From: an uncultured Bacteroidales bacterium
GTDB taxonomy: Bacteria; Bacteroidota; Bacteroidia; Bacteroidales; Muribaculaceae
Direction: 5' to 3'
Length of the DNA stretch: 64,000 nt
Assembly: GCA_947573135.1 (NCBI GenBank)
Contig: CANPDU010000005.1
Location: forward strand, 42,809 to 106,808
The notes under the pieces are model-generated. The model saw only the letters and a list, made by a program, of their open reading frames with translations, was not told the origin of the DNA and did not search any database. Position numbers and translations under genes: made by a program. Below are positions 31,912-37,947 of this stretch, in pieces (the first letter of the stretch is position 1; each line of letters begins with the position of its first letter).

Positions 31912-32008
31912 CAGTGGCGTTAAAAAGCTATAAAAAGCGAGGAAAAAGTCTTATTTAACTGTAAGTGTTTGGGGTTTTCTCCGCAAAAGTCTAATTTTGC
32001 AGATTGTA

Positions 32009-32354
32009 AGAGCTTGTTTAATAATAAATGTTGCCCGCAGGGTTGCATAGCTTGAGGAGATTTTGTAAGGAAACGAAGGAGCGTACCTGACGTACGCGAC
32101 TGAGGAGCAATGCAAAAAGCGTCCAAGACATGCGAAGCAAAGGTGACTTTAATTAATCAATCTCTTACCAATGGTATTAAAACAGATAAACCGATGTCAG
32201 TAAAATGAAAATAAATAGCAACCGACTGCCATTCGCCGACATATTTCCGTCTGCTCTTCGGTCGTTATGGAACCCCATAACTCCCTCATCACATCCAAAA
32301 ATCTGCACGGCGACTGACCGCCCTGTCGGTAACATTTATTTTTAAACCAGCTCT
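32009..32354. mobile_element. Noncoding element bounded by inverted repeats (MITE or IS remnant)
   Basis: The left end AGAGCTTGTTTAATAATAAATGTT (24 nt, 32009-32032) matches the reverse complement of the right end (32331-32354) at 22 of 24 positions, and weaker pairing continues inward (GCCCGCAGGG against ACCGACAGGG). The roughly 346-bp interior has no credible ORF. It contains a GCGTAC-CTGAC-GTACGC hairpin near 32084-32100. No clear target-site duplication was seen. This fills most of the 462-bp gap between pyk and the next gene. Confidence 0.6.
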
Positions 32355-32373
32355 AATATTTTATCACTATAAC

Positions 32374-33798
32374 ATGTCAAGACTTTCTGCTTTCTGCTTG
32401 ATCATATGTGCTGCCGGATTTGGCTTTGTCGGATGTAACACGACGAGCGAGACTCTGGAGTATGAGGTTCCGACAAGTGCGCTTGTCAAAAGTTTCTCAT
32501 TGTCGGCCGACACCAAAGTTCTGGATAATCTGGACAAAGTTTTCTTTTCGATAGATCTCGTCACAGGAAATATATTCAACGCTGACTCTATGCCTTACGG
32601 TACGAAGACCGACAAGCTTGTGCCTGTGATCACGACAGGCGGCGCGTCGGCTGTGGAACTTGTGGTGCCTCGCCCGGGTCAGAGCGATACGACCTACAAT
32701 TATCTTGAAAACTCGACAGACTCGATTGACTTTTCCAGCGGGCCTGTCAAACTCAAGATACAGTCGCTCAATGAGTCAGTGACGAAAGTCTATACGATAA
32801 AAGTCAATGTCCATAATGTCAAGAGCGACTCGCTGTCGTGGGGCGACATCGCTTACATGGAGCTTCCTACCAGTCTGCCCTATGTCGAGGCGCAGCATAC
32901 GCTTAAGTTCAAGGGCAAAGCTTACTGTCTGACGAGCGAAGGCAACAATTATTGTCTGGCGTCGAGCGACAATCCTGCGGCCAAAATATGGGAATACAAA
33001 AAGGTAACATTCGGACAGAACATGAAGGTGTCGACATTCAGAGCATCGAATGATGCGATGTATATTCTTGATATCGACGGCAATATGTACAAGTCGGCCG
33101 ATTTGGGAGAGAGCTGGACACAGACCGGACAAAAATATGAATATCTTATCGGCGGTTACGGCGACATTATGCTCGGAACGGTCAAGGACGGCGACAAATG
33201 GAAAATTGCCGGCACAGACGGGTCGTCGACCGATGCACCGGCCGAATTCCCGGTCACCGGTACTTCGGTTCCGCTTGAGTATACGTTCCCGATGAGCTCA
33301 ACACGTCAGCTTACAGTTGTCGGCGGAGTCAAGGCATCGGGTGAGCTTACGGGCTGCGCCTGGGGCTTTGACGGCAGCAACTGGGCCTGTCTGTCGAGCG
33401 CTCCGCTACCCGACGCACTCGAAGGTGTGACGCTGGTACCATATTATGTATTTGCAGAAAATGAATACTGGGTCGCAACAAAAGAGTCGATCTTTGTTGC
33501 TATCGGCGGTAAAAATGACACCGGCGAGTGCAATACAACGACCTACATATCATATGACTACGGTATGAGCTGGCGGAAAGGATCCGACCTGATGCAGCTC
33601 CCGAAATATGTACCGGGACTTTATGACGCCCAGACACTTGTGTTCACGAGCGAACTCGGCAGCCGGGCATCGGAGGCTATCACATCGTGGGAATGCCCTT
33701 ACATCTACATGTTCGGCGGCGAATTTTCCAACGGCCTGATCAGTAACACCGTATGGCGCGGAGTGATCAACCGTCTTTCGTTTAAACCTCTGCAATAA
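32374..33798 (+). CDS. DUF6242-like lipoprotein with Asp-box motifs
   Basis: 474 residues. The N-terminus MSRLSAFCLIICAAGFGFVGC is a lipoprotein signal. The N-terminal third is a beta sandwich-like domain (VKSFSLSADTKVLDNLDKVFFSIDLVTG). The rest is propeller-like, with two clear Asp boxes (S-x-D-x-G-x-x-W): SADLGESW near residue 245 and SYDYGMSW near 392. The arrangement recalls DUF6242 proteins that sit before the uppS-bamA cluster in Bacteroidales. Probable outer-membrane or surface lipoprotein, function unknown. DUF6089, uppS and bamA follow on the same strand with short gaps. Confidence 0.82.
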   Translation: MSRLSAFCLIICAAGFGFVGCNTTSETLEYEVPTSALVKSFSLSADTKVLDNLDKVFFSIDLVTGNIFNADSMPYGTKTDKLVPVITTGGASAVELVVPRPGQSDTTYNYLENSTDSIDFSSGPVKLKIQSLNESVTKVYTIKVNVHNVKSDSLSWGDIAYMELPTSLPYVEAQHTLKFKGKAYCLTSEGNNYCLASSDNPAAKIWEYKKVTFGQNMKVSTFRASNDAMYILDIDGNMYKSADLGESWTQTGQKYEYLIGGYGDIMLGTVKDGDKWKIAGTDGSSTDAPAEFPVTGTSVPLEYTFPMSSTRQLTVVGGVKASGELTGCAWGFDGSNWACLSSAPLPDALEGVTLVPYYVFAENEYWVATKESIFVAIGGKNDTGECNTTTYISYDYGMSWRKGSDLMQLPKYVPGLYDAQTLVFTSELGSRASEAITSWECPYIYMFGGEFSNGLISNTVWRGVINRLSFKPLQ

Positions 33799-33822
33799 GC
33801 GCCTGACATCGAGGAAACAAAC

Positions 33823-34515
33823 ATGCGGACAATTCGCCTGATCATAACGGCTTTATTGCTATCTGCGGCAACATTTTCGGTTGCCGGCCAGTCGACTCTC
33901 TACAAGTTTGATGCGGGAGCCGGTCTTGGCATGAGCGGTTATTTAGGCGATGCCAACCGGTCGTCGCTGCTGAAGCATCCCGGCTTTGAGGGCGAATTAT
34001 CGTTCAGGTATCTGCCAAATGTGAGATGGGCATTCAGAGGTGTGCTGTCGGCGTTGTCTCTAAGCGGATCTACGGCGGATATGGATAATGTACTGCCGTC
34101 GTCGGGCGCAGAAACGTATGATTTCAAATCGACAGTCTATGATCTCGGAGCCAGAGTAGAGTTTAATTTCCTCAACTACGGCATTGGTGAAACCTACAAG
34201 CGTCTGCGCCGGTGGTCACCATATCTGACGGTCGGTGTCGGCGTCAGTCTGTCGTCGTCGGGCGGAGAGACATCAGTAGCACCCAATCTGCCGATGGGCA
34301 TGGGTATAAAGTTCAAAATCAGCCAGCGAGTTAATCTTGCTGCTGAATTTACGATGACAAAAGTATTCGGCGATAAGGTCGACGGACCCGTGCTGAACGA
34401 TCTGAATATGATAAAAACAGCATTTTACAAGGACACAGACTGGTACTCGCGTCTGACGATAGGCATCAGCTATGAGTTCGGGGAGCGCTGTGAAACATGT
34501 CACTATGTAGATTAA
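33823..34515 (+). CDS. DUF6089-like outer-membrane protein
   Basis: 230 residues with a signal peptide (MRTIRLIITALLLSAATFSVAGQ). The body has the alternating pattern of a small outer-membrane barrel: YKFDAGAGLGMSGYLGDAN, GELSFRYLPNVRWAFRG, VGVGVSLSSSG, YSRLTIGISYEFG. The C-terminal GERCETCHYVD has two cysteines that could bind a metal or haem-like ligand, but a lone CxxC is weak evidence. Its place directly before uppS matches DUF6089 genes in this order. Lies between DUF6242 and uppS, with 24- and 9-bp gaps. Confidence 0.82.
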   Translation: MRTIRLIITALLLSAATFSVAGQSTLYKFDAGAGLGMSGYLGDANRSSLLKHPGFEGELSFRYLPNVRWAFRGVLSALSLSGSTADMDNVLPSSGAETYDFKSTVYDLGARVEFNFLNYGIGETYKRLRRWSPYLTVGVGVSLSSSGGETSVAPNLPMGMGIKFKISQRVNLAAEFTMTKVFGDKVDGPVLNDLNMIKTAFYKDTDWYSRLTIGISYEFGERCETCHYVD

Positions 34516-34524
34516 AACGACGAA

Positions 34525-35274
34525 ATGACAACGAGCAACGACATATCAGGCAACAGACCGGAAAATCTTCCGCGTCATGTGGCCATCATCATGGACGGCA
34601 ACGGCCGCTGGGCGCAGGCTCGCGGACTTGACCGTTCGGAAGGACACAGCGAGGGCGTAAAGACGGTGCGCCGCATCACCGAGGCGGCATCACGCGCCGG
34701 CATCGAATATCTGACCCTGTACACGTTTTCAACCGAGAACTGGAACCGTCCGCAGGCCGAGGTCGACGCTCTGATGCATCTGATTGTGATCGCAATCGAG
34801 CGTGAGACTCCCGACCTGATCAAGAACAATGTGAGGCTTCAGATGATAGGCGACAAGTCGCGCATGCCTGACGAGGCTCTGCACCGTCTCGAACGCTGTA
34901 TCGAAGAAACGTCGAAAGGCACCGGCCTGACATTAGTGCTTGCAATAAGTTATTCATCGCGCTGGGAGATAGTCGAAGCGTGCAAACGAATTGCTTCAGA
35001 AGTATCGGAGGGAATTATGTCCCTTGATAAGATCGACGACAAAATTGTCGCCAGTCATCTGTCGACGGCCGGAATGCCCGATCCGGATCTGCTGATCCGC
35101 ACCGGCGGAGACATGCGTGTGAGCAATTTCCTTCTGTGGCAGATCGCCTACTCGGAACTATATGTGACATCGACTTACTGGCCCGATTTCTCGGAAGAGG
35201 ACTTTCAAGAGGCCATAACATCATATGGCAGCCGTCAGCGCCGTTTCGGCCTGACAGGAGAACAGGTAAAATAA
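34525..35274 (+). CDS. uppS: Isoprenyl transferase (undecaprenyl diphosphate synthase)
   Basis: A cytosolic and membrane-associated cis-prenyltransferase that makes the C55 lipid carrier for peptidoglycan and surface glycans. 249 residues. HVAIIMDGNGRWAQARG holds the catalytic Asp and substrate-binding residues. SEGHSEGVKTVRRI, LTLYTFSTENWNRP, ISYSSRWEIVEA and the C-terminal PDLLIRTGGDMRVSNFLLWQIAYSELYVTSTYWPDF are all UppS signatures. bamA follows 36 bp downstream, a conserved neighbour in this phylum. Confidence 0.96.
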   Translation: MTTSNDISGNRPENLPRHVAIIMDGNGRWAQARGLDRSEGHSEGVKTVRRITEAASRAGIEYLTLYTFSTENWNRPQAEVDALMHLIVIAIERETPDLIKNNVRLQMIGDKSRMPDEALHRLERCIEETSKGTGLTLVLAISYSSRWEIVEACKRIASEVSEGIMSLDKIDDKIVASHLSTAGMPDPDLLIRTGGDMRVSNFLLWQIAYSELYVTSTYWPDFSEEDFQEAITSYGSRQRRFGLTGEQVK

Positions 35275-35310
35275 CACAAACAAAACAGACAATCACATCT
35301 CAATCATATT

Positions 35311-37947
35311 ATGCGATATAGACTGACCGTAATCACAGCACTGCTGATGCTGGCCTGCACATTTGCGAATGTGTCGGCACAGACAGCCAATGATACCATC
35401 TATAATCCGCCGGTTATCTATGGAAATATTCCTAAGGTATTTGAAATCGCCGGTATTAAGGTGGAAGGTGCGCCAAATTATGAGGACAACATCATACTCG
35501 GCTATGCCGGGCTTAAAGTGGGCGACCGACTGGCGATCCCCGGTGAAGAAGTGACCAATATAGTTAAGCGTCTGATGCGTCAGGGTCTGTTTGCGCAGGC
35601 TCAGTTTGTGGTAGACAAGACAGCCGACGGCAAGGCATGGGTCACACTCAAACTCAGGCCCCAGCCGAGAATTTCTAAGGTCAACTATAACGGTATGAAG
35701 AAAGGCGAACGCGAGGATATTCAGGAGCGTCTTCAACTGCTTAAGGGCAACCAGATCACACAGAATATCATCAACCGCGCCGAGGCAATAATCAAACAAT
35801 ACTACGACGGAAAAGGCTTCGGCAACGCTCAGGTCAACATCATCCTTCACGAAGACCTGTCGGCTCCGAATGAGATGATAGTCGATATCAATGTCGACAA
35901 ACACGACAAGGTCAAGGTTCATAAGATCTATATCGACGGCAATGAGGTGATGAGCGACCGCCAGATACAGCGCGCGATGAAGAAAACCAATGAAAAGGGC
36001 AAGCTGATCAATCTTTTCCGTCAGAAGAAATTTGTCGAAAGCGACTACCATGACGATTTGAACCGCATACTCGAAAAATATAACGAAAAAGGTTACCGCG
36101 ACGCCAAGATCGTGAGCGACAGCGTAGTTCCTTATGATGACCGTCTGGTTGACGTGCATATCACCGTCGACGAGGGCAAACGATATTATATCAAGGATAT
36201 AAGCTGGGTAGGCAATACGATAAAATCGAGCGAGGAACTAGCGTATTATCTCGGAATGCAACCGGGCGATGTCTATAATCAGAAACTTCTTGACAAACGA
36301 CTTAATACGGATGACGATGCAGTCGCCAACCTGTATATGAACAACGGTTATCTGTTCTATGAACTTGTGCCGGTCGAACGAGAGATCAGCGGAGATTCGA
36401 TTTCGCTTGAAATGCGTATAGTCGAGGGCCCTCAGGCGAGGATCAACAATGTGGTGATCAACGGCAACGACCGACTTTATGAAAAGGTCATCCGCCGCGA
36501 ACTGCGTGTGCGTCCCGGCGATCTGTTCAGCAAGCAGGATCTTGTGCGTTCGGTTACGGAGATTGCACAGACGGGCCACTTCAATCCGGAGACTCTCGAT
36601 CCGAAAGTTGAGCCGAACGCAGAGAACGGAACAGTCGATATAGTCCTTAACCTCGAGTCGAAAGCCAACGACCAGATCGAATTCTCGATGGGCTGGGGCC
36701 AGACCGGAGTGATCGGCAAGCTGTCGCTGAAATTCACCAACTTCTCGATCAAGAACCTGTTTCATCCGAGCACTTATCGCGGAGTGATACCTCAGGGAGA
36801 AGGCCAGACATTCACAGTCAGCGCCCAGACCAACGCGCGCTATTATCAGGCATACTCTGTGTCGTTCCTCGATCCGTGGTTCGGGGGCAAGCGACCGAAC
36901 TCATTGTCGGTTTCGGCCTACTACAGCCGTCAGACGGGTGTAAACTCCTCGTATTATAACTCTACGTGGGCCAACTCGATGAACTATATGGGTTACGGCG
37001 GTTACTATCCGGGCTATATGGGCAATTACAACGACTACTATCAGAACAGCTATCAGGCGTCGTATGACCCGAACAAGGTGCTTCAGATGGTAGGTCTCAA
37101 TGTCGGTTTCGGCAAGCGCCTGAAGTGGCCTGACGACTGGTTTACGTTTACAGCAGAACTCGGCTATAACTGGTATTATCTTAAAAACTGGGATTATCTC
37201 TATTATATGAACAACGGAACGTCGAACGCTCTTGTGCTGGGTCTCACACTCTCGCGCCGATCGATCGACAACCCGCTTTTCACACGCCGAGGCAGCGACT
37301 TCTCACTGAGTCTGCAGCTGACTCCGCCCGCTTCTCTTTTCGGCGGCCGCAAGGACTGGAAAAAACTCAGCGAAGAAAACACCGTCGAGTCAAAGAAAGA
37401 ACTTTACCGCTGGATCGAATACTGGAAACTTAAATTCAGATCGCGTACATACACGTCGCTTATCAGTCCGGAGACCACCCAGTGGACACCAGTGCTGATG
37501 ACGCGAGCCGATATCGGCCTACTGGGCAGCTATAACAAATACCTGAAATCGCCGTTCGAAACATTCTATGTCGGCGGCGACGGTATGTCGGGCAGCTATA
37601 CTTACGCGACAGAGACCATTGCCCTTCGCGGCTATGACAACGGCCAGTTCACGCCCTGGGGCAGTGAAGGCTATGCGTATACACGTTTCGGCGTCGAGCT
37701 GCATTTCCCGCTGATGCTTCAGGCATCGACCACAATCTATGCGTTGACCTTCCTCGAAGGCGGTAACGCATGGACATCGGTCAAGCAGTTCAATCCGTTC
37801 AGCATGAAACGCAGCGCGGGTGCGGGTGTGAGAATCTTCCTCCCGATGGTCGGCATGATGGGTATCGACTGGGCATACGGCTTTGACAGGGTATTCGGCC
37901 AGAAGGGCGGCAGTCACTTCCACTTTATCCTCGGTCAAGAGTTCTAA
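35311..37947 (+). CDS. bamA: Outer-membrane protein assembly factor BamA
   Basis: Core of the BAM machine that inserts barrel proteins into the outer membrane. 878 residues: a signal peptide (MRYRLTVITALLMLACTFANVSAQ), five POTRA domains (about residues 30-430; for example INNVVINGNDRLYEKVIRRELRVRPGDLFS) and a C-terminal 16-strand barrel. AETIALRGYDNGQF contains the conserved RG(F/Y) loop-6 motif, and the end HFHFILGQEF is an outer-membrane beta signal. An extracellular loop is notably Tyr/Gly rich (MGYGGYYPGYMGNYNDYYQ). It sits with uppS and two Skp-like chaperones. Confidence 0.96.
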   Translation: MRYRLTVITALLMLACTFANVSAQTANDTIYNPPVIYGNIPKVFEIAGIKVEGAPNYEDNIILGYAGLKVGDRLAIPGEEVTNIVKRLMRQGLFAQAQFVVDKTADGKAWVTLKLRPQPRISKVNYNGMKKGEREDIQERLQLLKGNQITQNIINRAEAIIKQYYDGKGFGNAQVNIILHEDLSAPNEMIVDINVDKHDKVKVHKIYIDGNEVMSDRQIQRAMKKTNEKGKLINLFRQKKFVESDYHDDLNRILEKYNEKGYRDAKIVSDSVVPYDDRLVDVHITVDEGKRYYIKDISWVGNTIKSSEELAYYLGMQPGDVYNQKLLDKRLNTDDDAVANLYMNNGYLFYELVPVEREISGDSISLEMRIVEGPQARINNVVINGNDRLYEKVIRRELRVRPGDLFSKQDLVRSVTEIAQTGHFNPETLDPKVEPNAENGTVDIVLNLESKANDQIEFSMGWGQTGVIGKLSLKFTNFSIKNLFHPSTYRGVIPQGEGQTFTVSAQTNARYYQAYSVSFLDPWFGGKRPNSLSVSAYYSRQTGVNSSYYNSTWANSMNYMGYGGYYPGYMGNYNDYYQNSYQASYDPNKVLQMVGLNVGFGKRLKWPDDWFTFTAELGYNWYYLKNWDYLYYMNNGTSNALVLGLTLSRRSIDNPLFTRRGSDFSLSLQLTPPASLFGGRKDWKKLSEENTVESKKELYRWIEYWKLKFRSRTYTSLISPETTQWTPVLMTRADIGLLGSYNKYLKSPFETFYVGGDGMSGSYTYATETIALRGYDNGQFTPWGSEGYAYTRFGVELHFPLMLQASTTIYALTFLEGGNAWTSVKQFNPFSMKRSAGAGVRIFLPMVGMMGIDWAYGFDRVFGQKGGSHFHFILGQEF

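Follow-up and report, generated by a model that had tools for sequence, protein, structure and literature searches.

Miniature inverted-repeat transposable elements (MITEs) are usually viewed as deletion leftovers and are defined by their ends alone. Among the described systems, the IS5-type MITEs of Porphyromonas gingivalis (MITEPgRS/MITE464 and BrickBuilt) are close to the element analyzed here; they also reside in Bacteroidales and are non-coding. The termini of these MITEs start with GAGAC(C/T)NTTGCA, a sequence common to the ISPg elements of the IS5 family, and stem-loops are predicted for BrickBuilt (PMC4596501). Unlike in the element studied here, the BrickBuilt stem-loops derive from direct repeats and the target-site duplications are irregular; moreover, the accessible part of this source describes neither a covarying arm of approximately 100 nt nor a tandem-GA motif for the P. 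gingivalis MITEs, which were compared by description only (PMC4596501).

The Correia or nemis elements of Neisseria are short intergenic MITEs with terminal repeats, which enter mRNA and fold, and the transcripts are cleaved by RNase III (review PMC10969869). Whereas this cleavage occurs at the paired terminal repeats, the present MITE harbours a conserved internal hairpin of its own in each half and a specific motif. As abundant imperfect hairpins between genes, these structured “arms” also resemble REP/REPIN sequences, but they differ from the latter in their size, the lack of a RAYT link, the target duplications and the IS5-like termini. Elements of the IS1031 group within the IS5 family contain a single ORF and employ a 3-bp target (PMC2516522). 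The arm-bearing IS5-family elements outlined below encode a DDE transposase with DUF4096 and DDE_Tnp_1 domains (NF033580) and putatively belong to the IS1031 type, and related IS5-family elements occur without arms. To our knowledge, structured arms of approximately 100 nt flanking the transposase gene are not a feature of the IS5 family.

The window, i.e., the whole stretch of 64 kb that was analyzed, contains such an element in the gap between the genes for pyruvate kinase (pyk, PF00224) and a DUF6242 protein (PF19755), the very location given by a sequence-only reading of this DNA. That reading had delineated an element of 346 bp at positions 32009-32354. The element itself stands, but its span is 32010-32353 (344 bp), because TAA target duplications occupy positions 32007-32009 and 32354-32356, and the outermost A and T counted previously are part of this duplication. 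The left TAA equals the right one, and in relatives the target site is present once. The predicted 24-bp terminal inverted repeats are real, with 22 of the outer 24 bases matching. The left terminal repeat (GAGCTTGTTTAATAATAAATGTT; 32010-32032, plus strand) is the best-conserved part across copies (0.99), and the right one (32331-32353, minus strand) reads GAGCTGGTTTAAAAATAAATGTT on the minus strand. Overall, the inverted repeat comprises two 34-nt stretches that are 85% complementary (32009-32042 and 32321-32354). The end sequence is found at two sites in the window, both of them ends of the element, and 100 shuffles yielded 0 matches; the whole-strand fold of the element beats dinucleotide shuffles with a z-score of -4.0. 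The interior lacks a gene, as proposed: of the ORFs with 60 aa or more, a single one extends into it, which is 68 aa long and lies on the minus strand.

Further copies with the same ends, which the sequence-only reading had suggested searching for, are present in the same genome. This 2.85-Mb draft, in which the window lies on contig C5, harbours eight near-full copies of 344-347 bp with a mutual identity of 85-98%, as well as two remnants with internal deletions (C26, C13), truncated copies (C42, C18) and numerous solitary ends. Seven of the eight near-full copies are flanked on both sides by a perfect TAA or TTA, and the eighth by ATA/TTA. The search for empty sites was likewise successful: in two congeners, L136 (G130) and L137 (G108), the pyk-DUF6242 gap is empty and reads CAGATTG-AAA-TATTTT, compared to CAGATTG-TAA[344 bp]TAA-TATTTT in the window, where the target duplication is visible. 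The first target base differs by one substitution between the empty sites and the window. Since two congeners carry the empty site, the element represents an insertion. G092, which belongs to another genus of the same family, contains at least 17 copies with the same ends, 336-350 bp in length and 72-77% identical to the window copy. Across copies, the termini are conserved best (0.95-0.99), followed by the arms (0.90) and the A+T-rich spacer between them (32139-32222), which is the least conserved part (0.81). Short, devoid of a transposase gene, bounded by terminal repeats and multicopy at unrelated loci, with a target duplication and an empty site, the element is a genuine non-coding MITE and, taken alone, adds one more member to an established class. 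A phage or plasmid origin was discarded, as 50,697 phage and 72,556 plasmid records gave no DNA match.

IS1031-type elements feature GAG ends and a TNA target. The GAG ends of the MITE and its 3-bp TWA target, duplicated in seven of the eight copies, point to an IS1031-like origin within the IS5 family, a reading partly backed by PMC2516522. The suggested search for a full insertion sequence with these terminal repeats turned up IS5-family elements in other genera and none in the own assembly. Near-identical termini (AGAGCTTGTTTAAAAACAAATG...) are found on IS5-family elements of approximately 900 bp, L170 (G022) and L173 (G043), whose open reading frames for the transposase span 267 and 248 aa and score 170.9 and 150.9 bits, respectively, against NF033580 (cut-off 110). 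L173, of approximately 897 bp, is bounded by AGAGCTTGTTTAAAAACAAATG and ..TTTTTAAACAAGCTCT and encodes a transposase of the NF033580 family, and the terminus GAGCTTGTTTAAAAA is common to the window MITE, L170 and L173. From the shared termini we infer that an IS5-family transposase probably moved the window copy. Direct observations are the termini, the copies, the target duplication, the empty site and the near-identical termini on IS5-family elements elsewhere. The MITE would be non-autonomous and mobilised in trans by an IS5-family DDE transposase, which would recognise the terminal repeats (GAGCTTGTTTAA...) and duplicate the 3-bp TWA target. A search of the own 56-contig assembly revealed no intact transposase gene with these termini; hence, the copy may be a fossil, or its helper may be unassembled. 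What the search did reveal is a DDE protein of 420 aa (C12), a distant relative, and degenerate fragments of IS5 on C34 and C22. The gene for the 420-aa protein (L061, C12:52848-53492) is the sole DDE_Tnp_1 gene of the genome with a long open frame; there are no arms in its vicinity, and its relationship to the IS5 transposases compared is remote.

The sequence-only reading had also noted weak pairing inside the element. Pairing exists, but rather than being weak, it gives either half a strong hairpin of its own. If the halves are aligned, each read inward, they yield two inverted interior arms of approximately 100 nt, which diverge in sequence and fold alike. Arm A (32039-32138) folds on the plus strand, inward from the left end, scores 86.3 bits with the covariance model and contains the apical stem GCGTAC..GTACGC, surrounded by a tandem-GA motif. 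Arm B (32223-32324) folds on the minus strand, inward from the right end, scores 97.8 bits and contains the apical stem GTTATGG..CCATAAC. The fold energies amount to -30.0 vs -21.0 kcal/mol on the opposite strand for arm A and to -47.0 vs -23.9 kcal/mol for arm B; in each of the eight arms examined, the inward strand gives the more stable fold (e.g., -53.2 vs -25.9 and -57.4 vs -36.6 kcal/mol). These single-sequence energies are independent of the fitted alignment used for counting pairs. Double-sided changes affect 21 of the 30 predicted pairs already among 11 arms and 28 of 30 among 98 distinct arms. In the latter set 94.0% of the cells are paired vs 65.6% after shuffling, percentages which lean upward, because the structure used to fit the alignment had itself been obtained from some of these arms, and related copies also inflate the counts. 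Covariation in the 98 arms reaches 0.750, while shuffling gives 0.250 and sliding no more than 0.173. There are 224 G-U cells and 31 A-C cells, an excess expected if the inward-reading strand folds. The near-invariant unpaired bases constitute two tandem-GA steps, arranged as 5' GA-RG-GA-[7-bp stem]-GA-CY-GA 3'.

The interior of the MITE thus contains one structured module twice, in inverted orientation and with diverged sequence. A structured RNA had been named as the fallback if the MITE reading failed; instead, both hold, in the form of a MITE with a conserved covarying interior structure. A hammerhead-like core was rejected by inspection, since arm B (CCGAAGA) does not preserve the CUGANGA resemblance seen in arm A, and the layout is different. 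Searches against Rfam 15 gave no match up to E = 1 for the window region or up to 0.1 for 12 loci, and no description of Bacteroidales MITEs with a covarying fold was found in the open-access literature, where most subscription journals are missing.

Within the family, the covariance model detects the arm in 50 of 99 genomes, several of which contain at least 40 candidates. Paired, inward-facing arms surround the transposase gene in the full or near-full IS5-family elements L106/L155 (1112 bp), L156 (1269 bp), L157 (1126 bp) and L158 (1149 bp); the L106 protein matches NF033580 (IS5) above the cut-off, plus PF01609 and PF13340. L172 (1086 bp) has one detected arm, and a search to E = 1 found none in L166-L171, L173 and L176, which are IS5-family elements with the same transposase model. 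A single arm resides inside MITEs of approximately 165-205 bp with other termini, mostly TWA-flanked, in other Bacteroidales families (G389, G390, G153, G310) and in G022 of the own family. Relative to the flanking genes, these single-arm MITEs point in either direction, with no sense-strand bias seen. The widest model matches at least 31 of 393 Bacteroidales genomes, from more than 20 family groups, and phylum-wide at least 6 of 396 genomes, with four weak matches outside the order; as the best 10-13 candidates per genome were scored, these counts are lower bounds. Two of the four weak matches (L244, L247) have the ends CTAGGA(G/A)TCTGTCGG. The shape of the hairpin, not its sequence, is kept in many otherwise unrelated Bacteroidota mobile repeats.

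Several loci display further arrangements. The C34 element of the own genome (L063:1175-1776) measures 602 bp and comprises the ends GACCCCGTTCCCCAATATTTG, a TAA target and two arms. In this element and its relative on C22 (L077:~1500-1980) the arms flank a degenerate IS5 transposase fragment, and the two form a second, related element family with different ends (GACCCCGTTCCCC...) and a TAA target. In G092, three consecutive elements are separated by TTA (L165:1260-2430): a MITE end with the window termini, an intact IS5-family element that lacks arms and a MITE with a single hairpin. The open IS5-family element and the adjoining single-hairpin MITE have a 14-nt end, AGAGATTGTCTAAA, in common. 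In G340, several arm-related hairpins occur in tandem within one intergenic region, without clear IS5 ends (L210:1490-1850).

Because the arm persists in non-coding elements whose termini differ, exceeds the spacer in conservation (0.90 vs 0.81) and shows no constant orientation towards host genes, we infer that it is a functional folded strand serving the element, not the host; the two orientations of the single-arm MITEs argue against an orientation-dependent host role. It is highly probable that the window element is an IS5-type MITE with two inverted structured modules, which would act in folded form, the simplest case being a hairpin of RNA. DNA likewise accommodates G-T and tandem G-A pairs, and therefore, the fold fits either RNA or single-stranded DNA. 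Our preferred reading is a hairpin of RNA (or single-strand DNA) that serves the element, and RNA on entering transcripts is preferred, since the folding strand of each arm reads inward from its end. Such an RNA hairpin would form whenever transcription runs into the element, whether from the left or the right, and would shield the element from read-through transcription, or make the element tolerable to it. Alternatively, a protein would bind the arm through the tandem-GA motif.

More tentatively, and with slightly less than even confidence, we propose that an undescribed structured RNA/ssDNA module with two tandem-GA steps below an apical stem travels with IS5-type transposons of the Bacteroidota and aids their mobility or their survival within the host. 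If true, such MITEs would be fold-dependent parasites rather than passive deletion products, their interior would be selected for a specific fold across element families that differ in termini and sequence, and families with different termini would carry the module singly or as an inward-facing pair. Autonomous relatives with and without the fold provide a natural contrast, which renders the benefit of a structured strand to a non-coding transposon a testable question.

Instead of RNA, the arms might form single-stranded DNA hairpins, which are extruded during replication or upon supercoiling and pair the ends or present them to the transposase or a host factor. DNA can adopt a strand-specific fold that includes tandem G-A and G-T pairs, non-coding MITEs whose termini differ have retained the module, and the absence of a gene-orientation preference is expected for a DNA role in mobility. 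However, we know of no use of single-stranded hairpins by IS5-family DDE transposases, and autonomous IS5-family elements with almost the same termini carry no arms, which implies that the arms are dispensable for catalysis. On balance, this mode of action appears unlikely.

With still lower probability, the arms would be subterminal sites that the transposase binds and that are retained for their sequence as DNA, with the hairpin arising as a by-product of the inverted duplication. While the arms adjoin both termini and contain the short near-invariant motif GA-RG-GA ... GA-CY-GA, the pairing persists as the sequence changes (28 of 30 pairs double-changed, covariation three times that of shuffled arms). 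Furthermore, many single-arm MITEs contain the hairpin once and in their interior, and the autonomous elements L167, L168, L170 and L173 do without an arm.

It is most improbable that the hairpins are REP-like sequences which a RAYT (Y1 HUH transposase) mobilises and which the insertion sequence has captured. They resemble REPs in being repeated, imperfect, strand-asymmetric and intergenic, but 0 arms are located within 1.5 kb of 25 Y1_Tnp matches, the genome of the window is without a Y1_Tnp match, and the hairpins are approximately 100 nt long and mostly belong to elements that are flanked by TWA and have IS5-like termini. A RAYT gene with such hairpins on its flanks, the hallmark of this class, was not found, and a RAYT/REP origin is largely refuted. 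Equally negligible is a host leader or riboswitch that mimics a transposon: the position between promoter and start codon and the conserved RNA-like fold would suit such an RNA, but multiple copies at unrelated loci, target duplications, empty sites in congeners and the missing Rfam match refute it as the primary identity of the element.

The consensus promoter of Bacteroidota consists of a -33 TTTG and a -7 TANNTTTGY box (PMC8748976). A promoter of this type, TTTG-N20-TAATTTTG(C), at 31968-31999 on the plus strand reads into the element; taken as TTTG-N20-TAATTTTGC at 31968-32000, it fits the consensus and is kept in both empty-site relatives. The element lies just downstream of this promoter and 17 bp upstream of the start codon of the DUF6242/BamI-like gene (32374-33798, plus strand), the leader of which holds the insertion; the encoded protein matches the BamI model below the cut-off of that model. 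In the empty-site relatives the start codon is within approximately 30 nt of the -7 box, whereas the window leader is longer by 347 bp. The native promoter would now read through a foldback leader of approximately 350 nt before reaching the DUF6242 start codon. The MITE is at the head of a same-strand run (32374-37947) that comprises DUF6242, an OMP beta-barrel gene, uppS and the gene for a BamA-like POTRA protein, and, judged by its location within the leader of genes that include uppS and bamA, the element may tune envelope assembly in this lineage. A preference for 5' leaders as a general rule was dropped, given that an inward TAnnTTTG box occurs at 2 of 20 G092 loci. Among the eight copies of the own genome, four (L001, L005, L007, L008) have a TAnnTTTG box just outside that points inward, with arm A first.
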